Shown here piece by piece: positions 13 through 34,718 of a DNA stretch of 64,000 bases. The position numbers were made by a program, and so were the translations under genes. The notes below the pieces were generated by a model. It saw only the letters and a list, made by a program, of their open reading frames with translations. It was not told the origin of the DNA and did no database searches. The first letter of the stretch is position 1. Every line of letters starts with the position of its first letter. This DNA comes from Ryuthela nishihirai (taxonomy: Eukaryota > Arthropoda > Arachnida > Araneae > Heptathelidae), in the NCBI GenBank assembly GCA_038380435.1, contig JAWZYU010000131.1, forward strand, positions 496,001 to 560,000, read 5' to 3'.

Positions 13-492
13 TTAGAGTGGGAACACCTCTTTCTCATATCCAAAAACATTGACAGAAATGTTGTTCATTTTTTCGAATTTAGATATTTGATTTATTGTA
101 ACAGGGAAAATTAAGCCAGATGTGTTTAATTTTTCTTCTAAATGTATATAGTTGTTAAAGCGCTGCAGATGATCTGTGGCAGGATACAAAGAGGCTAAAA
201 CAGACCAGACAAAACATTTTTGGTCAGAATTACATACATTGACAATAGCGTGTTTTAACAGTAATTCTCTTGGAGTAGGGATATAACTAGATCCTGAAAG
301 AGGGATATATTTTCCAACGTTCATTTCAGCGTGGAGTACAGTATCCAGTGTCCATCCACTATGTGCTCCTTCAAATTCTTCAAATGAGGCTTTAATCTTC
401 TTATACGCTGAATCTAGTTCTCTGTTCAGGGATGATGTAGGATGACTTGTGACACAGTTACTTCGGAGTACAGTACCATTTAATGCTACCAT
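13..492 (-). pseudogene. Polinton/adintovirus-type DNA polymerase gene, N-terminal domain fragment
   Basis: A 159-residue reading frame carries a domain I recognise from the N-terminal extension of Maverick/Polinton (adintovirus-like) protein-primed type B DNA polymerases in arthropod genomes. Seen: a WTLDTVLHAEMNV block, GSSYIPTP, a CFVWSVLASLYPA block, and FPVTINQISKFEKMNNISVN near the C-terminus. In the family the text continues after FPL; here a TAA follows at 13-15 and the frame runs on toward the window edge, so this looks like a nonsense mutation. A second in-frame stop lies just upstream of the ATG at 492. The zinc-finger frame at 613-948 is on the same strand and would precede this domain in an intact gene, so this is a broken endogenous copy. 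The polymerase core, if present, lies left of the window. Family assignment is from memory of the motifs and was not searched. Confidence 0.5.
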
Positions 493-612
493 TCGAGGTC
501 AATTCTTCTTCCAGATGAGTTAGGGGTTACTCCCGCGAGGATTCGAGGAAAAAGGTGAGGTCAACAGATGTTTCATCCGTTGCCATCAGCTTATGTGTTG
601 ACAGGGTACTTT

Positions 613-948
613 TCATTTCTTCTGTAAACTGACAGGGGTCTTCAGGGTCTGGTTTTTGTTTCTTTTGGGGAATCCTTTCATCCTCAGACTTTTTCGTTTA
701 TTATTGTGTGGCTTTCTTTGATGGCGCAAAAGACTGTCTTTTCTCCCAAACTCCATGGCACATTCTTCACATTTGTAGGTTTTCCTGGAGGTGTGGGTTA
801 ACTCATGACGTCGGACGTCATCTCTCCTTGAGAATGTCGATTCGCATTGAGAGCACTTAAAGAGGTTATTTCCATCATGATTTCTCTTATGACGAATGAG
901 ATGGGTCTGATGAATGAAAACCTTCTCACATTTATCGCATGGATACAT
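613..948 (-). pseudogene. C2H2 zinc-finger N-terminus of the same Polinton-like gene
   Basis: A 111-residue frame with three C2H2 fingers: CDKCEKVF...HLIRHKRNH (residues about 4-24), CSQCESTF...RRHELTH (about 32-52) and CEECAMEFGRK...LLRHQRKPH (about 60-81), then a basic tail rich in K and R. All zinc-ligand positions are present, so the fingers could fold and bind nucleic acid. Polinton polymerase-type proteins in arthropods often begin with such fingers. This frame lies directly upstream of, and on the same strand as, the polymerase-type domain at 13-492, separated by a stop (TGA at 613-615) and a frame change. A host zinc-finger exon is the alternative. Confidence 0.5.
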
Positions 949-1100
949 TATGGAACAGTGAGTTGTAAAATAGCTGATAATACACGAGGGCGTGGAGAAC
1001 TATCACTATTGCCGTTGAAAAAATCACGGAGAAGCAGCAGCAGAGAACTGTCACTGTCAACGTCTGACAACAGAATGAGGGTTCTGACTGGTGGATGTCG

Positions 1101-2319: not shown

Positions 2320-3475
2320 CAATGGATGCCGAGGTAAAGGCAACGGCTGCTACCACCACCTTTTTCGAACAGTTAGAGAGCATCACCTGTCAAAATGGCA
2401 AACGAGTGAGTTGGCGATCATCGCCTGTTTGAAGCTCAGAGGTGTGGCAACTGAATTTGTAAAAGCCTGACAGGAACTAAGCGCGGAGTTAGGCTAGGAC
2501 ATATTTAAGAGGTCAGTCATTGATAGGTTCGATCAGAGAAGCTTCAACTCACTCCGCGTGTCTGAACACGAAAATGACGATCACTCAGTTAGAAACTTGG
2601 ACATTGATCAGATGCCAACTCCATGCAAAAAGCTTAAGAAGACATCACATCCACTTTCTTTAGTTGATTTTCAGCTTTACCATCTTTAGCCAGGAAAGAG
2701 GACTACTAGGGAAGTTATTGATATGAAATAAATATGACTTTGCTAGAGAGCTGAGCGAGTTAACACGAACGGCGGCAATATACCATGATATACACCTTAC
2801 AGATAGGAAACCAGTGACAGAGGTGCCTTTCGCATTTCAGGGAAAATTAGATTGACAGATAGATGAGTTACTCGATAATGGTATCATAAAGGAGAGTATT
2901 TCTCCCTTTGTTTCACACATTGTCTTAGTGAAGAAGGAGGATTCCAAATAACGGTTTTGCGTCGATTACAGGGCATATAATGCAAAAACAATTCATGATT
3001 CGTACCCTCTAATAAATAAAATTATCGAGCAAATCGCGCATGCCATGTTCTTTAGTTCCGCAGAGCAGGTGTCAGGATATTGGCAAGTCCCTGTGCACCA
3101 TCACAACCTCGAGATGACTACATCCATCAGTAGAAAGGGGCTATTTGAATTTAAATTCTTGCCATTTGGATCACGTAATAGTCTCACCACATTTCAGCAT
3201 TTCTTAGATAATGTACTCATTGGCATGCGTCAGGAGCAAGTGCTGGTGTATTTGGACGACATTACGGTCGCCTCCCAGACATTCGACCAATGTGAATAAA
3301 CACAGTGAGGTTGCAAAATGTTTTTGACTGTCTGCGATCTTTCAAACTTAAGTTGAAGCTATCAAAATGTTGTTTCTTAAACAATCACTGACCTATCTGG
3401 GACCCCTGATTACTGCAGGCAGACTGAAATACGACCCACGGAACATCGAGATCATCGATTACATTTTTTCAGCCT
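2320..3475 (+). pseudogene. Degenerate Ty3/Gypsy retrotransposon (gag and reverse transcriptase)
   Basis: Translating across frames and stops shows Gypsy-type text in the right order. A Gag-like start (about 2323-2640) is followed by reverse transcriptase from about 2750. RT marks are PFAFQGKLD, DNGIIKESISPFVSHIVLVKKED, the RFCVDYR block, and, in the longest open piece (3045-3299), GYWQVPVH, FEFKFLPFG and the catalytic YLDD box (VYLDDITVASQTF). Several in-frame stops (for example near 2855, 2950 and 3297) and frame changes show it is dead. Protease was not identified; RNase H and integrase are absent to the right. No LTR pair was found, so this is a fragment. In life it would have reverse-transcribed the element RNA. 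Confidence 0.85.
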
Positions 3476-6050: not shown

Positions 6051-8774
6051 TTTTCTAATGTGTAAAAGAGCTCTGATTTCAACCCCCTGTAATCTAATAA
6101 CTAATATCCTACTATATGGTTCCAAATAACTTCAGCTTCAACTACTCCTTCACAATTTTATAGAAACTCTCCGATAAATCATAATATCCGTTTCCTTCCT
6201 AGACTTCATAAAGGATCATTTGAGGAAGTACCATGCTATTGCCGTGTACACCCCATAGGTTAGGATACTGATGTTCAGTTGGCCGGAATGCGATTGACGA
6301 TGGTTTTGCGTTGTGTTTATCATGTATGGTGTGACAAGAATCTGTGGTTACCATATAGGACCTGCCTGAAAATAGGTAACTGTGGTGACTGTGACTGAAG
6401 TTCCTCCCTTCCCGCCCACAATTATATCCCACAAGTCAACCTGGGCACCAAAGATAAAATAAAATCATTCAATGAAGGGTGGTACTAAGGCTATGTACTA
6501 AATCTGATGTGATTGAAATACTAATTTCTAAATGAAGGACAGTGAGTTAGCCACGAGCATACCAGCTAACTGGTGAGAGTAGCAGAAACGGACTATTTGA
6601 CTGTCTCTCAGAAACGATAGAGACATCTGCCTAACCCTTCTTTTCCCTCAAGGCTCTCCTCCTCTCCAAGACATTAGACCTTCTAAAGCTCACAGTGCTA
6701 AGTGGCAATGCAGTGCTAAACTAATGGCCTCTCCAACCCTACTTTTAGATAGCAGCCACTTAGCTCTGCAAACACTTCTTTCACTGGGTATGAAAATATA
6801 ATATGCTTTAGAATTATTAAGCAAGTTTAGCAATGGGTTAAACATAATACAAATGAATTTATTAACCATTCAAAACAAAGGGGTTAAACCCCTGAATACA
6901 GGTATTAATTGTAGTTTGTGATTGGTTATATGTTACAGACGAAGAGAAAACATAAAAATACGCTCCTACTAATAACTCGCATTGCTAATAGAAAACACTA
7001 AAATAAATGCAGGTAAAGCAACTACTGACTAAGCTGAAAATATCTCTAGCTGATTTGTAAACTATCTTCTCTTAATCCTAACTGTTAACCAAACTGTTAT
7101 TTTTACAATATTGCATTAATTCTCCATTTAAAGTTGGCGAGCAAGATAAGGGAGATTTCAAAATGGTCTCTCAAAGACTATATAAATCTCGGCAGAGTTG
7201 ATCACTGAACACTAACGTGCACTTCGAAACACTGTCCAGTTGCAGCTGAGGGGTGAAAATGCTGAATAGTTCTTGGGGTTGTTCACTACAAGAGTGGATA
7301 GTTCACTGGACTCTCTGGCTAACAGGTCCTTCTGGGGGTTTAACTTAGGCACTAAATTATCGAGCTGCAAACTGCTTCAATTTTAAGAAACATCAAAATA
7401 CGTATTATGCTTTTATCGTTTTATAAATTTAGCATACCCAATAAAAGAAGTTGGACTTTATCCACTTCGACAGATAGAGCTTCCGAGTCCTAGAAGCTAT
7501 CCCACTTCCTTCATCGGCTATGCTATTAGGTTGTCGAAGCTCATACATACAAAAAAAAGATTGGAAGAGGGGAATTCTGAGGTAGCGAAGTGTAAGAGAG
7601 GATGGCTATCTAGCGGCGGCCCCAATAATGACGGCGATTCTGGACAGCCCTCTCACAAGCTTGGCTGACTTGGAAGTTGCATTGGGGTGAGAGTTTCTAT
7701 CATCCCAACAGGATGAAGGTCTGCAGTATTGTCTGCTGAGGGAAGTTGTCGGTTCTTAAAGTTGAAAGGGCTTGATCTAGATCTCCTGAAAAATGTTCTA
7801 TATGTCGATGCTCTCACTTGGGAAGCTCCCTGCACTTCCCTCTACCCCATTCCCTATTCAGGGATCGAATTCGGCCCATCAGAACAGCCTTTCACAAACG
7901 CTAGGAAATTCGAAAAGGAAGAATAAACCGCTGTTTTACAAAGGGAACTTAAAATTGTAAATCTGATTAATAACGCAATGTACTTGCAGTTAATTTGTCT
8001 GAATATCTGAGAGAGAGTTTGTCTGTTTGACATCTGCTCGTAGACGATGAGAGTTAGGAGCACCGAACTTCGTGTACAGATTCATATCAACGTTAACAGG
8101 TGCAAGGAAAGGATTTCCACCCCAGATAATTAGGTCCACCCGAAAAGTTGCCGCGAAATATCTCTCCATTGATAACTTTGTCAATCGTTAAAAATGAGAC
8201 TATTCATAATTTTGAATTCTCCACTAATAAGTGGACGACGGCAGCGCCCCCAGCAACTTCTGAAGCTCGCAGGGATTTAATCCCGACCCACCATAGCTAG
8301 GAATTCGATCTCTTAACCTTAGGGGGTCAGAACTAAGTGACATCACCACACGACATTTGGGAGGGATCGGTCCAGTAGGTGCCGAATTACGGGAAACTGA
8401 AAACTTCCGCCACCGGTGACGTCATTCCGGACGTGAACAGCTGTCTGCGAATCCGTTACGAGTAGCTTGCCACTATGTCAGTCATTACAGCGAGGCCCGA
8501 GGGACGCCGGGAAATTCCGTGTGGCATTCTTCTAATGAGTTCATGGATTTGCGTGTCCCTTTGCAACGGCTGAAGAGAGTCAAAGGCTCCGACCTTTGAT
8601 CGACAGGTTGCGGCGCATCAATTGACGACATCAAAGAGACCGTCAGTGCGCTCAGAGGAAACGAAAGCAATGCGCAACAGGGACTCTTTGATGAACCGCT
8701 TTGGGCAAACGTCTCTTCTGACGAAATGGGCGGAAGAAATTCGTTAGCATATCTAGCGCCAAAATATAGCTGTG
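6051..8774. other. Gene-free stretch
   Basis: No recognisable gene, RNA or mobile element. Composition becomes less AT-rich from about 7560 to 8720. That part also contains the sequence into which the LINE at 8789 later inserted. Short open frames at 7653-8184 and 8485-8817 overlap on both strands and have no family signal. Confidence 0.45.
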
Positions 8775-8788
8775 TCACGTTGTTGGAA
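8775..8788. repeat. Left target-site duplication of the LINE (14 bp)
   Basis: TCACGTTGTTGGAA here is repeated exactly at 9780-9793, on the other side of the LINE fragment. Confidence 0.75.
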
Positions 8789-9232
8789 GCAGAACTATCA
8801 GCTATAATTTTGGCCATTAACTGGGACCTAAAATTTGAGAAAAAAATAATAGCTATTTTTACTGCCAGTAAAGCATCAATAGAAGCTCTATATAACTATC
8901 CTCTTAAAAGCAATTTTAAAATTTTTATTAGTGACATTTTAATATTAATAAAACAACACATTACACAACATAATATTATACATATACAATGGTTACCATC
9001 ACACTCTGGAATTAAACACAATGAAATTGTAGATAAATCAGCCAAAAAAACTAACAATATTAATCCAAACTTAGAAACCCCCTTCCTCATATACATTCAC
9101 AAAAAGCAATGCAAAAAACAGTTAATTGATATTCAAAATTGGTATGATTCCAATGCATCCAATACACACAGATACAAAATATCTAATAAATTTAATAAAT
9201 TTAATGAACATGGCTTAAAAAAAAATAAATAA
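8789..9232 (+). pseudogene. LINE RNase H domain fragment
   Basis: The frame shows the retroelement RNase H pattern: E in AELSAI (the second catalytic acid region), FTASKASIEAL, where the usual Asp of the T-D-S box is Ala, and IQWLPSHSGIKHNEIVDKSAK, with the conserved His and final Asp. The Asp-to-Ala change predicts loss of nuclease activity, in keeping with a dead 5'-truncated copy. The open frame extends left to 8726 only because the target DNA happens to be open. The first RNase H strand and all of the RT are absent. Confidence 0.7.
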
Positions 9233-11320: not shown

Positions 11321-11324
11321 ATAT
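11321..11324. repeat. Target-site duplication (ATAT), left
   Basis: ATAT directly precedes the 5' LTR and recurs at 15258-15261 directly after the 3' LTR, the 4-bp duplication usual for Ty3/Gypsy integration. The low complexity of the sequence lowers its weight. Confidence 0.65.
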
Positions 11325-11960
11325 TGTTACGACAGAAGAATCTGGCAACCGAAAGCAAAGTTTCAGCCAACGAATAAGAACGTTGGGAGAATTTGGAGAA
11401 GAAGAGTGGAGCGTTAACGGTCGTTGTGTTGTAACGGTCGTTGTATTGTAACGGTCGGTGAGTTCGAAAATGGACGGTGAGCTGTTCTGAGACAGTGCGC
11501 GTAAGTATCAAGAAGTAACTTGATGTGTTGTGTATACACGGAAGGATAAAAGTGGGATCTTTTATCGTTAAGTATCAAGAAGTAACTTGATGTGTTGTGT
11601 ATACGCGGAAGTATAAAAGTGGGAACTTTTATGGCTAACTTCGAATGTCTACACGGACTGTCTTTTTGTTCGGCTAGTGTGTGAAAAGTTATTAGCACAG
11701 GACGAGAATTGGTTTACGAGTGAAGATCTTCGGGTGACCTGGTAAATCAAGTAAAAGGTAGTATTTAGTAAAATACACAGAGCTGATGTAGTGTGCTCAC
11801 GCAGGAAGATTGATGACTTGTGCATGTTAATAGTTGATTTGTTAATAAGATACTTCATCCATATTTCCTTTGTAACAATTTACCTTGTATTGAATTTGGT
11901 TTTGAAATATAGCTTTTAATACTCACGTTCAGTGGCTATCCATTTTTGTGATCCGCAACA
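11325..11960 (+). repeat. 5' LTR (636 bp)
   Basis: Begins TGTTACGAC and ends CCGCAACA (TG...CA termini). It matches 14624-15257 except for a small change near 11372 (AATAAGAAC against AATTGAAC), one A lost in a GAAG run near 11580, and one T/A change near 11665. Inside are three copies of a GTAACGGTCG motif (11415-11460) and a 67-bp tandem duplication carrying the promoter. Confidence 0.93.
11502..11635 (+). promoter_or_regulatory. Tandemly duplicated 67-bp LTR promoter module
   Basis: Copies 11502-11568 and 11569-11635 differ at only a few bases. The second contains a TATA box, TATAAAAG at 11612-11619. The first has the same place mutated to GATAAAAG. The 3' LTR carries the same pair (14800-14866 and from 14867). 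This is probably the U3 core promoter, with transcription starting about 30 bp downstream. Confidence 0.55.
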
Positions 11961-11962
11961 TT

Positions 11963-11980
11963 TGGTGTCAGGAGTGGGAT
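11963..11980 (+). promoter_or_regulatory. Primer-binding site
   Basis: TGGTGTCAGGAGTGGGAT lies two bases after the 5' LTR. It starts with the TGG complementary to a tRNA CCA end. The complement (ATCCCACTCCTGACACCA) has the form of a tRNA 3' end, most like tRNA-Leu. The exact tRNA is inferred. Confidence 0.75.
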
Positions 11981-11990
11981 AATTTATTGA

Positions 11991-14612
11991 ATGCCGTTAA
12001 CTAGAAGTATGGATGAATTGGTAAAGTTGTTGAATGACATTAAAAGTCAAAATAATGATTTGAAAGCCGATATGGCCGCACAATATAATGAGTTGAGAAC
12101 TGAGATAGTTTCTCAAAAAGATGACTTGAAAGCCTATATGGCTACACAGTTCAAGGATTTTAAAACCGAACTCAATAGACAATGCAATAGTTTAAATGTT
12201 GAATTTGTCAGTGAAAAAGATGATCTTGATAGTGTTAAGTTAGATTGTAAACATGGAAAAGAAAAAGAGAAAGGCAACGCATATAAAAATGTGGATCTGC
12301 TACTGAAAATCAAGAATCGTAGAGATAGCGCAGATAATGCCTTTGACCACGCAACTACTGGTGATGCATGGCAGAGTGTCTATGTCGCTGGTGACATGTC
12401 TAGGAACTGTGAAGAACAATCACACAGATCAGAGAGCTGTGAGACTATACAGTACGCTTTGCACTTCAAAATACCTAGGTATACAAGTCTGGCACGATCT
12501 GAAGAGAGATCCACACGAAAGGTATTCTATTCCTCGCCGTCAGCAAAATGTGTCATGGACAATTATCGCAAAGGCAGAGTAACGAGTGGTAATGAGGGGG
12601 AACGAAACAGAGTTTACGTTTCGCAGAGTGGTCCGAGTAAAGAAGAGGTGTCCATTCATCATAGATACAAAGTGCCCTTCGTCGTTACCGGGGAAGTCGG
12701 AGAGATTTTTCCGAAGCATATAGCCACACTTGAATCGTTTATAGAAAGTGGGGATTTAAGAAAGAAGAATTCCGAAGAATGGCTTAGAAGCGTAACAGGT
12801 GATGCTAGTAAAGGAGCTTCAGGCAGAGACAGTACTTCAAAGACTAACTTTCTGGATGAAACTAAGCCTCAGAGTTACGATCAGAGAGAAGTAAAGCCCT
12901 CAGACAATTTCAACGTAGCCACGCTGAATTTCTTTTCTGAACAGTCAATGTGCAGATTTGGACATTATAACCATTTAGATTATAAGGATATAGAAAAGTT
13001 TTATCACGACTACAAGAGCTCTAAAGTGGACAATATCATGTTACAGAACTCGTCGCTGATCTCCAGAATGAACAATTTGGCAATCATGACTGATATTTCC
13101 CTGGCTAATTACAATGAGAGCTCCAAGAAGGTGAATTCGGAAGAAACAGCAACTATGACCTCCTCGGGTCATGTGTTTTGCTGGAGACCTGAGTGGCGCC
13201 ATCGGATGGTGGATAAACACGGTACAGGAGGTGTCGGCGACAAAGTGAGTCTTGTCTTGGCTCCTGCACTTGCTGCTTTAGGTCTCAAGGTCCCTATGAT
13301 CTCCGGTCGTGCTCTCCAATTGACGGGAGATACTCTGTACAAATTGGAATCCATCCCTGGCTTCACAGTCGACTGCACTAAAGATAAAATCGAGCAGATG
13401 ATGGAAGACGTCGGATGCTGCATCGTAGGACAGACAGAGGAGCTGGTGCCAACAGATAAGGAGATTTACCGCTGCAAGGATCTGACGGCTACCGTAGATA
13501 GCGTTCCTCTAATGAGATGCTCAATTGTGTCCAAAAAGCTGGCTGAAGGAGTGTGCGCTTTGGTTTATGATGTTGAATTCGGAAAAGGAGCTATTGATCT
13601 CATCAGTACAGAAGACGCTGTTGATTTAGTTAAGAAAATGGTTGCAGCATCACAAGCTCGTGGAATGAAGAGTTCAGCTGTTATCAGCAACATGGATTCA
13701 CCTCTTGAAAACTCTGTTGACAACTCTCTGGAAGTGATGGAAGCTGTTCAGTGTTTCCTTGGTAACGGATCCTTGGAACTGCAAGAGCTCGTCGAAGAGT
13801 TAGGAGAACTTCTGCGTTTTGTGAACATTGTGGATAATAGGGTAGATGAAGCATCACGTGTCCGTAAGGTTCTGCATAACGGCAATGCTTTGAACAAGTT
13901 TCGTAACATGTTAATAAAACAAGGAGTATCTGAAGATGTTGCAAGCTGGCTATGTGAAGGTAAAACAGAAAAAATATTGCTAGCAGCCCGACACATCACT
14001 GATTTCACTTATACAGGAGAAACAGGTAAGGTTGTCGGATTAGAAGCTGCAGTTCTAGCAAGAGTATGGAAGGAGGAGATGGACCGAAGAGCTAAAAAGA
14101 ATTATGGAGCTGATATTATATTTTTGAAGCACCTTGGGGATCAAATGGAATCAGGTGAAATATGGCTGAAGGTTCATCACGACAGCTCTGAATTAAGTGA
14201 AAGTCAACTGACAAAAGGGTCAGATTGCAGGATGAAAATTCTCCCTAGATTTTATGTCACTAATGACTTTCATTCCTTGTTACTCTTGATAGAAGTAAAA
14301 ATCCAAAGAAGAAAACTTTTTACAGGTTTTGCACGAAAACTCTTAGTCGATTCTTCTCCCTGCAGAGACATAAACGTGTTCACAAGGGCTATAGGCCTTA
14401 CACGTATTATGTTTGTGGACGAGGCTTCAGTCAGAAAAGAAATCTACGTCATAATGAGATTCGCTTTCATTTTGACACAGACGTGGTATATCGCATTCGT
14501 CGACGTCCAGCTACAAAGTGCAAGGTGGTTCACGTGGATCGTTTGGCCCCGTTTCATCGAAGAACTGAAGAAGCTTTGGAATCCAGAATTGTTCGGGACG
14601 AACAAGACCTAG
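11991..14612 (+). CDS. Chimeric 873-aa ORF: Gag-like N-terminus fused to thymidine phosphorylase
   Basis: One uninterrupted ORF starts 30 bp after the LTR and ends 11 bp before the 3' LTR. Residues 1-62 form a charged coiled coil with a 22-residue direct repeat (SQNNDLKADMAAQYNELRT, then SQKDDLKAYMATQFKDFKT), as in Gypsy Gag N-termini. Residues about 63-380 are hydrophilic and not recognised. Residues about 384-743 are thymidine phosphorylase. Residues about 744-873 are an out-of-frame reading of zinc-finger and integrase sequence, so they are probably junk. The first ATG is chosen because it follows the PBS directly. With no stop in 873 codons, either the copy is very young or the ORF is under selection. 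Protein activity is doubtful (see the domain entry). Confidence 0.8.
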   Translation: MPLTRSMDELVKLLNDIKSQNNDLKADMAAQYNELRTEIVSQKDDLKAYMATQFKDFKTELNRQCNSLNVEFVSEKDDLDSVKLDCKHGKEKEKGNAYKNVDLLLKIKNRRDSADNAFDHATTGDAWQSVYVAGDMSRNCEEQSHRSESCETIQYALHFKIPRYTSLARSEERSTRKVFYSSPSAKCVMDNYRKGRVTSGNEGERNRVYVSQSGPSKEEVSIHHRYKVPFVVTGEVGEIFPKHIATLESFIESGDLRKKNSEEWLRSVTGDASKGASGRDSTSKTNFLDETKPQSYDQREVKPSDNFNVATLNFFSEQSMCRFGHYNHLDYKDIEKFYHDYKSSKVDNIMLQNSSLISRMNNLAIMTDISLANYNESSKKVNSEETATMTSSGHVFCWRPEWRHRMVDKHGTGGVGDKVSLVLAPALAALGLKVPMISGRALQLTGDTLYKLESIPGFTVDCTKDKIEQMMEDVGCCIVGQTEELVPTDKEIYRCKDLTATVDSVPLMRCSIVSKKLAEGVCALVYDVEFGKGAIDLISTEDAVDLVKKMVAASQARGMKSSAVISNMDSPLENSVDNSLEVMEAVQCFLGNGSLELQELVEELGELLRFVNIVDNRVDEASRVRKVLHNGNALNKFRNMLIKQGVSEDVASWLCEGKTEKILLAARHITDFTYTGETGKVVGLEAAVLARVWKEEMDRRAKKNYGADIIFLKHLGDQMESGEIWLKVHHDSSELSESQLTKGSDCRMKILPRFYVTNDFHSLLLLIEVKIQRRKLFTGFARKLLVDSSPCRDINVFTRAIGLTRIMFVDEASVRKEIYVIMRFAFILTQTWYIAFVDVQLQSARWFTWIVWPRFIEELKKLWNPELFGTNKT
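13134..14220 (+). other. Captured thymidine phosphorylase domain (partial)
   Basis: This stretch aligns by eye with metazoan/bacterial thymidine phosphorylase (thymidine + phosphate to thymine + deoxyribose-1-phosphate, nucleoside salvage). Landmarks are VDKHGTGGVGDKVSLVLAPA (from residue 407), KVPMISGRALQLTGDTLYKL (430s-440s), CCIVGQTEELVP, DLTATVDSVPLM (497-508), SKKLAEG, and the C-terminal FLKHLGDQMESGEIWLKVHH. About the first 100 residues of a usual enzyme of 440-480 residues are missing. Active-site changes relative to E. coli numbering: Ser86 is Gly411, Arg171 is Lys496, and the HTGG loop reads LTGD. Ser186 (S511), Lys190 (K515) and Lys84 (K409) are kept. No introns interrupt it, which indicates capture from mRNA. 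Activity is unlikely. Confidence 0.88.
14321..14482 (+). pseudogene. Captured C2H2 zinc-finger fragment
   Basis: In the frame two bases after the main ORF frame, this reads as two degenerate C2H2 fingers with the classic linker: FFSLQRHKRVHKGYRPYTYY, then VCGRGFSQKRNLRHNEIRFH. HxxxH spacing of the first finger, the TGEKPY-like linker (KGYRPY) and the FSxxxxL core of the second are visible, while several Cys ligands are lost. It has no stop and runs directly into the integrase tail. It is not part of a normal Gypsy element, so it is a second captured host gene piece, or part of the same capture event. Confidence 0.7.
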
Positions 14613-14677
14613 GAAGGGGGCAGTGTTACGACAGAAGAATCTGGCAACCGAAAGCAAAGTTTCAGCCAACGAATTGA
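14483..14677 (+). pseudogene. Residual C-terminus of Ty3/Gypsy integrase
   Basis: VYRIRRRPATKCKVVHVDRL followed by APFH is the usual end of Ty3/Gypsy Pol, just before the PPT. It is the only pol sequence left. It shares a frame with the zinc-finger fragment and overlaps the end of the 873-codon ORF in another frame. It shows that the parent was an ordinary Gypsy element whose middle was replaced. The frame remains open into the 3' LTR. Confidence 0.85.
14611..14623 (+). promoter_or_regulatory. Polypurine tract
   Basis: AGGAAGGGGGCAG ends exactly at the 3' LTR (TGTTACG at 14624), the expected place for plus-strand DNA priming. Confidence 0.8.
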
Positions 14678-15257
14678 ACGTTGGGAGAATTTGGAGAAGA
14701 AGAGTGGAGCGTTAACGGTCGTTGTGTTGTAACGGTCGTTGTATTGTAACGGTCGGTGAGTTCGAAAATGGACGGTGAGCTGTTCTGAGACAGTGCGCGT
14801 AAGTATCAAGAAGTAACTTGATGTGTTGTGTATACACGGAAGGATAAAAGTGGGATCTTTTATCGTTAAGTATCAAGAGTAACTTGATGTGTTGTGTATA
14901 CGCGGAAGTATAAAAGTGGGAACTTTTATGGCTAACTTCGAATGTCTACACGGACTGTCTTATTGTTCGGCTAGTGTGTGAAAAGTTATTAGCACAGGAC
15001 GAGAATTGGTTTACGAGTGAAGATCTTCGGGTGACCTGGTAAATCAAGTAAAAGGTAGTATTTAGTAAAATACACAGAGCTGATGTAGTGTGCTCACGCA
15101 GGAAGATTGATGACTTGTGCATGTTAATAGTTGATTTGTTAATAAGATACTTCATCCATATTTCCTTTGTAACAATTTACCTTGTATTGAATTTGGTTTT
15201 GAAATATAGCTTTTAATACTCACGTTCAGTGGCTATCCATTTTTGTGATCCGCAACA
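14624..15257 (+). repeat. 3' LTR (634 bp)
   Basis: Near-identical direct copy of 11325-11960, two bases shorter, same termini, followed by the ATAT duplication at 15258-15261. Confidence 0.93.
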
Positions 15258-15261
15258 ATAT

Positions 15262-21274: not shown

Positions 21275-21410
21275 ATTACGAAGATATCACTCTGAATTTA
21301 ACGTGGATGAATTTTAGAGCAAAAATTGTGTTGAGCCGGATGGGATACGAACCGACGACCTCCTGATAACATGTCAGGTGCTGTGGACCACTGAGCTCCC
21401 GGCCACTGAG
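21275..21410 (-). mobile_element. tRNA-derived SINE, family D, minus copy
   Basis: Minus-strand head with GGGAGCTCAGTGGTCCACAG (A box) and GGTTCGTATCCC (B box), then a short tail ending near GTTAAATTCAGAGTGATAT. The same head and tail occur in the opposite orientation at 21510-21635. Confidence 0.7.
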
Positions 21411-23156: not shown

Positions 23157-23496
23157 TGATAGTTCCCAGGTTCGAGTCCCAGCTGGGTCAGCGTTGAGAT
23201 TTATCTCCGCAAAATACCCCGCCCTGTCCACGGTCAGTAGGGGACACCGATGGGCTTGGAAAGGACGCCGTCCGTCGTATGAGAGGTTACGCTGTGGCCT
23301 CGTGTGCGGGAGAGCCATACCCTGTGCACGTTAAAGAACACGCTCGATGGCCTTGACGGGAGGTTACCATCCGTCTTCCAACAGCTATTCCAGTGGGTCC
23401 CCTCCCCTTCTCTGAGACTTCGGGGTCCTTGTGACCTGGCCATTTAGCACATGGTGTGCAAAAAAGTGCCGCTCAGAGGTAAAACAACACTACCCA
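23157..23496 (+). mobile_element. tRNA-derived SINE, family B (A box lost)
   Basis: B box GGTTCGAGTCCC near 23169, then a long body shared with 26104-26465 and, inverted, with 30782-31068. Shared blocks include CGTGTGCGGGAGAGCCATAC, GTGCACGTTAAAGAAC, TCCTTGTGAC and GCTCAGAG(G/A)TAAAAC. Confidence 0.8.
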
Positions 23497-26103: not shown

Positions 26104-26465
26104 AGGAGGTGGCTCATTCGGTAGCACGCCAGGCTCGTAATCTACAGTTCCCAGGTTCGAGTCCCAGCTAGATCAGCGTTGAGATTTATGTCAACAAAAC
26201 TCCTCACTCGGTCAGTAGAAGACACCAATGGGATTGCAGAGACCGTCGGATGGGACGTTGAGCCGTGGCCCCGTGTGCGGGAGAGCCATACTCTGTGCAC
26301 GTTAAAGAACCCGCTTGATGGCCTTAACGGAAGACTACCATCGGTCTCTTAATAGTTGTTACTCTGGGTCCCTCCCCCAACCTTCTCTCAGCCTTGGGGG
26401 TCCTTGTGACATGATTATTTAGCCCATTGTGTGCAAAAAATTGCTGCTCAGAGATAAAACCCTAC
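26104..26465 (+). mobile_element. tRNA-derived SINE, family B (most complete copy, about 360 bp)
   Basis: A box TGGCTCATTCGGTAGCAC (26110-26127) and B box GGTTCGAGTCCC (26154-26165) at tRNA spacing, then the full body and the A-rich GAGATAAAACCC end. This is the reference copy in the window for the family. Confidence 0.85.
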
Positions 26466-30196: not shown

Positions 30197-30341
30197 AAGA
30201 TTCTATGGACACTCGCGTTCAGGAGATATAGAGGAACCGTCATTTTCATGAAAATTATAGGGAATATTAAAATATAGAGGAACCGTCATTGAAAATGACG
30301 GTTCCTCTATATCTCCTGAACGCGAGTGTCCATAGAATCTT
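30197..30341. repeat. 52-bp perfect inverted repeat with an extra nested copy
   Basis: 30197-30248 is the exact complement of 30290-30341, with 41 bp between. The spacer ends in a direct copy of part of the left arm (ATATAGAGGAACCGTCATT, about 30272-30290), which makes an 18-bp hairpin with a three-nucleotide loop next to it. Confidence 0.92.
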
Positions 30342-30781: not shown

Positions 30782-31068
30782 GTTGGGTAGGTTGTTTTAT
30801 CTCTGAGCGACACTTTTTTGCACACCATGGGCTAAATGACCAGGTCCCATGGACCCCGAAAGCTTAGAAAAGGTTGGGGGAGGGGACTCACTGGACAGCT
30901 GTTGGGAGCTCCCGTCAAGGCCATCCCGCGTGTTCTTTAACGTGCACAGGGTATGGTTCTCCCGCACACGGAGCCACGGCTTAACGCCCCTTCCGACGGA
31001 CGGCGGCATTTCCAAGCCCATCGTTTTGCGGAGATAAATCACAATGCTGCCGCTGGGACTCGATACTA
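30782..31068 (-). mobile_element. tRNA-derived SINE, family B, minus copy
   Basis: Complement of the family B body (TTTTATCTCTGAGCG, GTTCTTTAACGTGCAC, CTCCCGCACACGGAGCCACG), ending near a mutated B box (GGGACTCGATACTA). The A box is not recognisable. Confidence 0.8.
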
Positions 31069-31620: not shown

Positions 31621-31837
31621 GTGGAAGTAAAACTTTTTGCAGCTTTCTGAAGTGGAAGTAAAACTTTTTGCAGCTTTCTGAAGTGGAAGTAAAACTTTTT
31701 GCAGCTTTCTGAAGTGGAAGTAAAACTTTTTGCAGCTTTCTGAAGTGGAAGTAAAACTTTTTGCAGCTTTCTGAAGTGGAAGTAAAACTTTTTGCAGCTT
31801 TCTGAAGTGGAAGTAAAACTTTTTGCAGCTTTCTGAA
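31621..31837 (+). repeat. 31-bp minisatellite, 7 perfect copies
   Basis: Seven head-to-tail copies of a unit starting GTGGAAGTAAAACTTTTTGC and ending AGCTTTCTGAA, with no mismatch seen. Overlapping minus-strand frames here come from the repeat and are not genes. Confidence 0.95.
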
Positions 31838-34718
31838 GCGCATTCTTTTTTAATCGGTAATGTAAATTGCACATATTGAGGTTACAGAATATAGTAACTG
31901 TTACAACGTTAACAGAGTTAATTTAGAATTTACGATTTGCATTTACCGTGAATTATTTCTCGGTTAACAGTAAATTATATTGTAATCATGGGTTAAAGAA
32001 ATTAAAAAAAATGTAATAAACAAGAGTGCTTTATTTTTCGTTTTTAAGTATGATATGAGTTTATATAAAAAGGAAATCATTTTAGGTTTATTTTTTCTCT
32101 CGGAATTCTGGGAGGATATGAGGTGAAAAAGGAACACATGTCCTCCTTTTGGAGGACTTATGGTAACCTTACTCATGAAAAAATTCTCGTCAATCAGAAA
32201 TAAAAAGTAATCCTTGTATCATAACGTAATGATGTAGAAGGCGTTTGACTAATGCCAGAGCCCCTAGATTTCATAAATTTTTTCTGCTGTTTCTGAAAAG
32301 AGCAGAATTTTTTTTGGTGAGAGTTCAGAACGATTCACTCCATTTACATTTGCAACCAGCATCGAGTAAGTTTTTCTTAAATTCTGAAATGAAAATATTT
32401 AACGAAGACTCATTCCCACGAAACAGTTTAATAAATTCCATCATGAAATATTTCGCACACTGTATCATATTCACAAAAGCACAGACCAGTGAATGTAGGC
32501 AACAGCACACGAGACAGATGCTGATGTTCGGCGTTGAAAAACGGGCCACAAACGACAGATGTCATTTCAGCTGCTACTCCGAAAGTATCCGAATTTTGGC
32601 CTGGAGAATCCGCCCCGTCTTCTACACAGACACGTACGGAAAAGCGGAACAATTGTCGATTGTTCAGAAAGACCTGAAGGTGAAACTGAACGTGTGTGGG
32701 GGGCTTTTTGAACAGGGCATATCCTTACATCAGAGCCCTGTACAAGGCTCAATGCGAATAGTGATTTTCATCTTCCAGATCTTTTGACAATATTGAAAAG
32801 AAGTATAACTTTTATTTGAACTTTTCATTAAAACAATATTTAGTTGAAAATCGGTCTCCAAATTTTATTAATTTTTTGTAATAAATATTTTTAGACTTCG
32901 TTTCATGATCACTTAATATAAATAGATCATAAGACATAAATTTATGATAAGTACAATATAAAATATGCAGATCAATATAACCATTGAATATTATTGAAAC
33001 CTTTAGGTCCCATATTATTTAGGCCCATGTTTTTTTTTTTGGAACTTCTCTTTGAATAGTTTTATTTTTGCACGTCATTTTATATGAGTGCTAGAAAAGA
33101 CTCAACCACAAGCCCCGATTAAACGGTAAAATTGGAAATGGCGGATTATCATAATGAAAAAAATAATTTGTTGAGGTGAAGGGGCAGCTAGTGTTGCCGT
33201 CTTTATATTAGCTGTTTCTTTTCTTTTCCGTCGAAAATTTTAAGAGAAATTTTGAATCTGAATTAAAAATTGCTTCACCAGTTTTTTTTAAAATTCATAA
33301 TCCCTCCGTTGACCCCCCGCGCATGAAAGTTGGATTAGGACCAGCGACTTTATTAATCGTCGACATTCCCATAACCTCTCTTGAGCACAGTTAATTAATT
33401 AGGAGCTTAAAACACGTTTCAATCTCACTCTCGTGGCCAATAATAACTTCGAGAAAAACGCGCGTCTTTTTTAATTTGTTATTAAATACATTAGCTTTTT
33501 TTTTGTTTTTCGCATCTCACCGTACCAAATCATAATTGGAAGTAGTTTGGTTTTGAGAATAAATGGGATGATATAGGCTACTTATAATTTATTTCGAAAA
33601 ACTATATAGCGTTAGCAATTCTTCTGCAACATGGCTTTGAGCTCTTTGAATTACAAAGGAAATAATATTTTGCTTCTTTTGTTATTATTCTTCAGGCCAG
33701 GTTCTTCATCTGATGATCAGAGGCTGCATCTGCTCTTACGTTGAGAATTTTCACCGCTATCTCTCATTCTGGGTGAGACCAATCTCAGTCAGATGGAACT
33801 TTAAATCTTCGCTAAGCCTCTTGATGTTCAAGATAAAGAAATATGCGTTGGATGGATCTGACGCGAAATCCGCCTCAAAACCTAACGAAGGTAATGAAAA
33901 ATTACGTTTTTACATTTCCATTGCTTTTAAAGGTTGAACTAAAGGGGCATTGACATGTTGCACTTTAGGTTTGAACGGAATAAAAATGAACACATTCAAC
34001 AACAGAAAAGGAATTTCTAGGTATGAAATTTTCCCAGGATAAGCTTTATGGCACCTTTCAAGTCTCGTTGACTTTTAAAACCATGGTAATAAGGCATCTT
34101 TTTGAATTGCGGAAAATATGCCTGGATATTGACTCTGTAATTGGAAAAATATGCATGGGATATTGGTCGTGAAATTCGTAAAACTTTAAAGTTTTGGCTC
34201 TCTCTGCAGAAGTAGCAGTTAATAATGCATTTCCTTTCAGAACGATGATCAGGAAGAGATCAGCTGGTACTGAACGGTGGAGATGAGGTCGAGGGGAGAG
34301 AATCATCGGGGATCATCACTTTTCCAGGTCTGATTTCATCAGCTACGATTTATGATTTGGGTTAATGAGGAGAGCCGCGAAGCGAGGAGCTGAAGTGGAT
34401 TCCAGGAGAAAAGAAGCTCCCGATACCAACAATTGCAGTGCCTGAGGAAGCCAAAACGATCATACTGGGCTGAAAAAAAAAACTTTTTATCCGTATCTTC
34501 CAAAATGTTATCTGTTTTTTTGTTTTCGAGAATGCTGAATCCTAATCTGACAGCCGATTTGTTCTATTACCTACAGTTTTCAAGAGATATAGATTTAATT
34601 TGAAACAAAATTTTACTCAGAAAAGATAAATATATTTTACCAAATTTTTTTATATTATAAAAAGTTAAAGCTGACAACTAACAAATCCTGATACATGTAA
34701 ATATTTACAAAAAAAAAA
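31838..34718. other. Gene-free stretch with one coding-like segment
   Basis: Between about 32430 and 32690 the minus strand is open and less AT-rich (residues include FRFSVRVCVEDGADSPGQNS and MTSVVCGPFFNAEHQHLSRV) and is preceded by a fair 3' splice site (GTTTCACCTTCAG). The opposite strand is open too. The family is not recognised, so I do not call a gene. The rest is AT-rich DNA without features. Confidence 0.3.

Follow-up and report, generated by a model that had tools for sequence, protein, structure and literature searches.

A truncated thymidine phosphorylase segment in a candidate gene-transducing Ty3/gypsy LTR retrotransposon of a chelicerate

Introduction

Oncogene-transducing retroviruses carry fusions of Gag with a cellular gene and are defective and helper-dependent. 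LTR-mediated retroposition in metazoans was reportedly described by Tan et al. in 2016. In the model set out in the available part of one review, a packaged cellular mRNA becomes joined to LTR-element RNA when the templates are switched where the two are similar over short lengths; switching is in theory possible several times, the mRNA is often copied only in part, and the joined product acquires LTRs and hence the means to move again (PMC5408686). The same excerpt describes such retrocopies in Drosophila, mosquito, zebrafish and chicken, with no chelicerate among the species it names (PMC5408686), and LTR-mediated retrocopies in animals are also reported in the accessible portion of PMC8232201. 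In maize, the element Bs1 contains sequence from three cellular genes, a full-length ORF being present for none of them, and a chimeric gene that is transcribed and translated arose from it, according to extracts of two sources (PMC13317346, PMC7264820). Bdelloid rotifer LTR retrotransposons possess extra enzymatic ORF3s, the enzyme being a separate ORF beside a retained gag and pol, as portrayed in part of PMC5408684. In view of the animal cases in these excerpts (PMC5408686, PMC5408684), the statement in the original prediction that host genes in LTR elements are rare beyond oncogenic retroviruses and a few plant elements was too strong.

Here, an LTR element containing a segment of thymidine phosphorylase (TP) is described from a 64-kb window, meaning the whole stretch of DNA that was analysed. 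Its resemblance to the oncogene-transducing retroviruses lies in a probable fusion of Gag with a cellular gene in a defective element that would need a helper, whereas nothing here points to an envelope or to infectivity, and its cargo probably has no function. Like maize Bs1, it is an LTR element carrying pieces of cellular genes, but, as far as the extracts on Bs1 go, it differs in its animal host, its gypsy integrase tail and its cargo of TP and a zinc finger, and it is represented by one copy, known from sequence. With metazoan LTR-mediated retroposition, as outlined in the excerpts, it would share the joining of host mRNA into an LTR element by template switching, terminal LTRs, often partial mRNA and the lack of introns; unlike those cases, it probably contains two cell-type pieces and has TP in frame with an ORF from the gag side. 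As in the bdelloid elements of the PMC5408684 extract, an enzyme gene has been added to an animal LTR element, but the present element has lost most of gag-pol and its enzyme probably lacks activity.

Neither a captured TP nor a transducing element of a chelicerate was found among the papers listed in the literature searched, as judged by title and start of abstract, a body of text outside which most subscription papers lie. The TP cargo and the chelicerate host appear to be new, the kind of element and the mechanism being already known but seldom described. To the animal examples of LTR-mediated gene transduction the locus would contribute one from a chelicerate whose anatomy can be read, with probably two cell-type fragments in a single gypsy element, one of them in frame with the ORF from the gag side, caught soon after the last jump. 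If further copies exist, it would be a natural instance, from beyond plants and vertebrate retroviruses, of exons shuffled by an LTR element.

Results and discussion

Boundaries and anatomy of the element

Sequence comparison identified window positions 11325-15257 as an LTR element, all features of which, other than the target-site duplications, are read on the plus strand. The LTRs were delimited by comparison with each other: the 5' LTR (11325-11960, 636 bp, TG...CA) contains an internal tandem duplication of 66-67 bp and a TATAAA motif at 11612, and the 3' LTR (14624-15257) is 634 bp long. Both begin with TGTTAC, end with GCAACA and are in direct orientation. They share 99.4% identity (2 substitutions and 2 gap columns in 636), in agreement with the original prediction of two near-identical LTRs (identity above 99%) and a recent move. 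Because the LTRs differ by 2 substitutions over about 634 sites, their sequences mark the last insertion as apparently recent. A PBS-like stretch, TGGTGTCAGGAGTGGGAT (11963-11980), follows the 5' LTR, and its reverse complement resembles the 3' end of a tRNA, including CCA; we take this tRNA to be tRNA-Leu. The polypurine tract-like stretch AGGAAGGGGGCAG (14611-14623) abuts the 3' LTR, and the PBS and PPT of the original prediction are thus both supported by sequence and position. The proposed ATAT duplication is present on both flanks (11321-11324 and 15258-15261), but, given the (AT)n sequence of the left flank, a 4-bp duplication is weak evidence taken alone.

Between the LTRs, little of the coding capacity of an autonomous element could be recognised. 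The end of a Ty3/gypsy integrase (Integrase_p58_C, PF22938) was matched by Pfam at 14480-14551 with E 7.9e-7 and 29.5 bits against a cut-off of 27, in the same frame as the zinc-finger piece described below; the codon periodicity of this stretch is not significant (p 0.14). The tail alone remains of the integrase, before the 3' LTR. Because it scores above the Pfam cut-off, Ty3/gypsy descent of the backbone, as predicted, is supported at the sequence level, and with it the reading of the TP-carrying element as an LTR retrotransposon. Protease, reverse transcriptase, RNase H and integrase core were absent from the Pfam results for the ORF and the integrase-tail frame, the frames beyond these being full of stops, and the predicted non-autonomous state is therefore supported. 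The integrase-tail piece, the gag-like piece and a 21-base LTR pattern had no matches in viral contigs, and the LTR pattern had none in prokaryote genomes, both being collections in which arachnid DNA is not expected.

A blastn search found no second copy of the element elsewhere in the 64-kb window. The reading depends on one copy, as would be the case if two LTRs of the same family flanked a host gene fragment by chance or if the contig were chimeric. Such an accident is extremely unlikely, the PBS-like stretch, gag-like start, integrase tail, PPT and flanking ATAT all being correctly ordered and oriented and the frame continuing from the gag side into TP.

Homology of the captured segment

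The captured TP segment, recognised by homology and by its place in a phylogenetic tree, comprises ORF residues 384-743 (13140-14219). A protein search with these residues, which had been suggested as the check on their identity, returned TP: among the best 120 of 7991 hits, the top protein match was the TP of Limulus (49% identity, E 1.5e-103), and three named spiders (46-49% identity) were within the next five. Human TP in PDB matched with E 2.8e-78. One of the seven TP-type NCBIfam models scored above its cut-off, namely PRK05820 (E 1.5e-84, 284 bits, cut-off 269), with the six other TP/AMP-phosphorylase models at 1.2e-83 to 5.3e-34, all below their own cut-offs. In Pfam, Glycos_transf_3 was matched with E 6.2e-34 and 118 bits (cut-off 27), the C-terminal PYNP_C domain reaching 0.18 only. 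The profile alignment contains no intron-sized insertion over the 360 codons of the TP match, and the absence of introns noted in the original prediction holds over that length.

Roughly the first 60-70 residues of chelicerate TPs are undetectable in the captured segment, and chelicerate TPs run 20-33 residues past its other end, with one row (P0127) running off differently; as judged from these alignments, both ends of the captured TP appear to be missing. Behind the segment there is no stop and no poly(A) tract. These features bear on a two-step origin, in which a processed TP copy made by a LINE was inserted into a gypsy element, after which the whole travelled as one LTR element. Such a history would also yield an intronless TP between LTRs, but a copy that ends short of the chelicerate TP end with no stop or poly(A) behind it, an ORF that enters TP in frame from the gag side, and a zinc-finger piece left unexplained make it very unlikely.

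Phylogenetic placement

A maximum-likelihood tree was constructed from 25 rows, consisting of the query and 24 of 230 homologues hand-picked for spread, and was rooted at the midpoint. The query, Limulus and six spider or spider-like rows were split from the 17 other animals with support of 99/96, the query and the six rows were split from Limulus with support of 88/70, and the six rows without the query had support of 100/99. Three of the six are named spiders, and three are spider-like by their place in the tree. Going by this placement alone, the host would probably be an arachnid outside the spiders. The grouping of the captured TP with chelicerate TPs is supported by these splits, and this part of the predicted capture of a host TP stands; the part that saw one clean gene does not, the segment being truncated, altered at catalytic sites and likely accompanied by a zinc-finger fragment. 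A bacterial source of the TP was considered and is unlikely, the organism-named matches among the best 120 of 7991 hits all being animals; the tree contains animal rows only and does not by itself test such a source. The end branch of the query (1.15) is the longest in the tree. A great age for the capture was not read from this branch alone, as the paths to the six rows from the shared fork are also 0.9 to 1.2, and most of the long branch of the query may reflect evolution in the host.

The TP N terminus

Two scores that would have extended the captured TP towards its N terminus were examined and set aside. A seven-TP profile (four rows from named chelicerates, three spider-like) reached residue 327 and covered model positions 17-424 of 456, as if the TP were near-complete. 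The N-terminal part of this profile, 91 positions long, gave 15.4 bits for residues 327-405, as if the TP were full-length, against 5.4 bits for the best shuffle (143 reported among 200 shuffles). The 15.4 bits were discounted, since they include the block of evident homology that starts at residue 384. Once trimmed of it, the N-terminal profile scored 2.2 bits on residues 300-388, a value equalled or exceeded by 203 of 2000 shuffles, and the seven-TP N-terminal profile trimmed in the same way scored 0.5 bits on residues 1-388 (at least equalled by 291 of 1000 shuffles). A wider N-terminal profile from 14 species gave -0.3 bits (698 of 2000 shuffles at or above) and -0.9 bits (483 of 1000). 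Because the trimmed profile scores no better than chance, a TP N terminus is not claimed; it may be absent, or present but very diverged. When residues 300-760 were modelled with AlphaFold, the model could be superposed on human TP across 450 columns (TMq 0.80), but it does not decide the matter, because its first eight blocks have pLDDT of 35 to 63 and its 30-row input alignment contained TP N termini.

Catalytic residues and conserved positions

In the alignment with human TP, which has no gaps in this part, Lys115, His116, Thr118, Ser126, Ser144, Tyr199, Ser217 and Lys221 are kept in the captured segment, and seven positions are changed (Ser117 to Gly, Gly147 to Ala, His150 to Leu, Gly153 to Asp, Asp156 to Tyr, Arg202 to Lys and Ile214 to Met). 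Five of the eight residues of the human active-site set that was tested (Lys115, His116, Ser117, Tyr199, Arg202, Ile214, Ser217 and Lys221) are thus present. The part of PMC2719695 available here places Ser117, Arg202 and Ile214 in the active site of human TP and a glycine-rich loop at 144-154, leaving open a role of the loop in phosphate binding. In the same extract, human R202S and R202E have no measurable activity and I214A keeps some (PMC2719695); the captured copy has Lys at the first of these positions and Met at the second. The dimer interface of the human enzyme is formed by its N-terminal helices, again according to that extract (PMC2719695).

The alignment of homologues was also examined for near-invariant columns, defined as at least 97% conserved among the 230 homologues. 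The captured TP departs at 12 of these 87 columns, the highest count among the query and the 230 homologues, the next being 7. Pooled over seven TPs (four from named chelicerates, three from spider-like rows), departures number 34 of 612 (one-sided Fisher p 0.007), a comparison to be read with a homologue set rich in vertebrates and isoforms and with columns of one protein that are partly dependent. This excess, 12/87 vs 34/612, is the one feature of the captured TP that points to relaxed evolution. Because the segment appears to lack both ends of TP and departs from 12 of the 87 near-invariant residues, Ser117 and Arg202 among them, TP activity is unlikely on sequence grounds, and the TP part is probably a passenger sequence without enzyme activity.

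The open reading frame and the question of selection

The TP segment is part of a single ORF (P0001, 11991-14612) of 873 codons that runs from a gag-like start through the TP region. Residues 1-103 (11991-12299) are AT-rich, with one long N-terminal helix predicted at residues 3-67. Pfam gave Baculo_PEP_C at 1.5e-5, below its cut-off, together with weaker matches of coiled-coil type, and no gag family match; position and the predicted helix make it likely that these residues are gag. The following 280 codons (residues 104-383, 12300-13139) are coding-like by periodicity and openness: two pieces of the stretch show three-base periodicity at p 0.003 and 0.001 (2000 shuffles each), and none of 5000 mononucleotide shuffles of the stretch was open. 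They matched Pfam families weakly at most (NSUN2 pre-PUA, 0.038, below cut-off). Residues 1-380 had no homologue at E <= 10 among 3728 candidates scored, which are about 209-665 residues long, so that longer relatives would be missed, and for residues 101-340 no credible relative was found in PDB, the six matches (best E 0.34) being to unrelated molecules. A single-sequence fold of residues 1-383 has a mean pLDDT of 37.5. The stretch at 12300-13139 may be the remainder of gag, a further captured sequence or gene, both, or, at its end, a diverged TP N terminus. Beyond the TP match, a further 130 codons (14220-14609) are open in the ORF frame, as long an opening as was seen in 3 of 5000 shuffles; this stretch partly overlaps the zinc-finger frame, and periodicity is absent at 14220-14297 (p 0.94).

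An unbroken run of 873 codons could mean upkeep by selection, and was counted against reading the TP as a passenger. The ORF might belong to a long-lived element family whose Gag-TP protein is selected and working, as an accessory fused to Gag or through an activity on the nucleotide pool like that of retroelement dUTPases. The continuity of the frame from the gag-like start through TP, the coding-like middle stretch and the young LTRs would all suit such a family, and rotifer LTR elements bear dUTPase domains and enzymatic ORF3s in the extract of PMC5408684. Against it are the altered Ser117 and Arg202 of the active site, the altered positions of the glycine-rich loop and the undetectable N-terminal region, which in human TP supplies the dimer-interface helices. 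The open frame itself would also be unremarkable without selection. By a hand estimate, the surplus of changes at near-invariant positions (about 8 percentage points) corresponds, if neutral, to some 25-30 amino-acid changes over the 360 codons; at roughly one stop for every twenty changes, this would bring one or two stops, and none is seen. Since this amounts to modest relaxed evolution with few stops expected, selection is not needed to account for the open frame, and a working Gag-TP is unlikely. Similarly low credence is given to a family in which a catalytically altered Gag-TP fusion is kept as a structural or nucleotide-binding part of the particle; if true, a host metabolic enzyme would have become a retrotransposon protein in an arachnid.

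The zinc-finger fragment

Two bases on from the TP frame, a second frame is open at 14270-14626 and contains two degenerate C2H2 fingers followed by the integrase tail. The zinc-finger piece (14291-14455) was matched by PF13465 at 1.2e-5 and, in two stretches, by PF00096 at 6.2e-4, both below the Pfam cut-offs. Zinc-finger matches in PDB reached 7.9e-22 for whole multi-finger sequences and about 0.001 at best for single stretches. To our knowledge, pol does not normally include a zinc finger at that place, and for this reason the piece is likely a second transduced fragment derived from the cell, a weaker reading than the capture of TP. The original prediction mentioned neither this piece and the integrase tail nor the altered active-site residues.

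Origin of the element

The account that we consider quite probable is that of a non-autonomous Ty3/gypsy LTR retrotransposon of a chelicerate carrying cellular sequence transduced by template switching. Gypsy genomic RNA would have been packaged together with spliced host mRNAs, that of TP and probably that of a zinc-finger gene. Reverse transcriptase would then have switched templates between the gypsy RNA and the mRNAs, with most of gag-pol replaced, and the chimeric cDNA, retaining PBS, PPT and LTRs, could have relied on proteins from an autonomous relative for its copying and integration. Translation of the ORF may yield a fusion of Gag and TP. The sense orientation of the pieces, their lack of introns, their truncation, their differing frames and the intact ends of the element would fit this template-switch model, and two cell-type fragments in different frames are probably as repeated switching would give. 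The excess of changes at near-invariant positions suggests that the capture predates the last insertion, a pattern that a donor already degenerate at the time of capture would also produce.

Other features of the window

The right part of the window is filled by a satellite array of about 26 kb (37560-63886) with a 118-bp unit and higher-order periods of 434 bp. Shorter repeats comprise a 31-bp unit present as seven perfect tandem copies (31621-31838) and a 52-bp perfect inverted repeat with 41 nt between its arms (30197-30341). Dispersed repeats were observed among 21332-21405, 23161-23488, 26146-26378 and 30791-31023, two copies of which (23161 and 26146) contain GGTTCGAGTCCCAGCT; in this group a minus-strand tRNA match was obtained with RF00005 (30 bits vs a cut-off of 29) and none with ARAGORN, and the repeats are possibly tRNA-derived SINEs. 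Fragments of other retroelements are found at 2952-3296 and 8600-9229, with matches to reverse transcriptase (PF00078, 1.5e-12) and RNase H (PF00075, 2e-9). At the left end of the window (16-999) there are two minus-strand ORFs, one without a Pfam match and the other with three C2H2 fingers.
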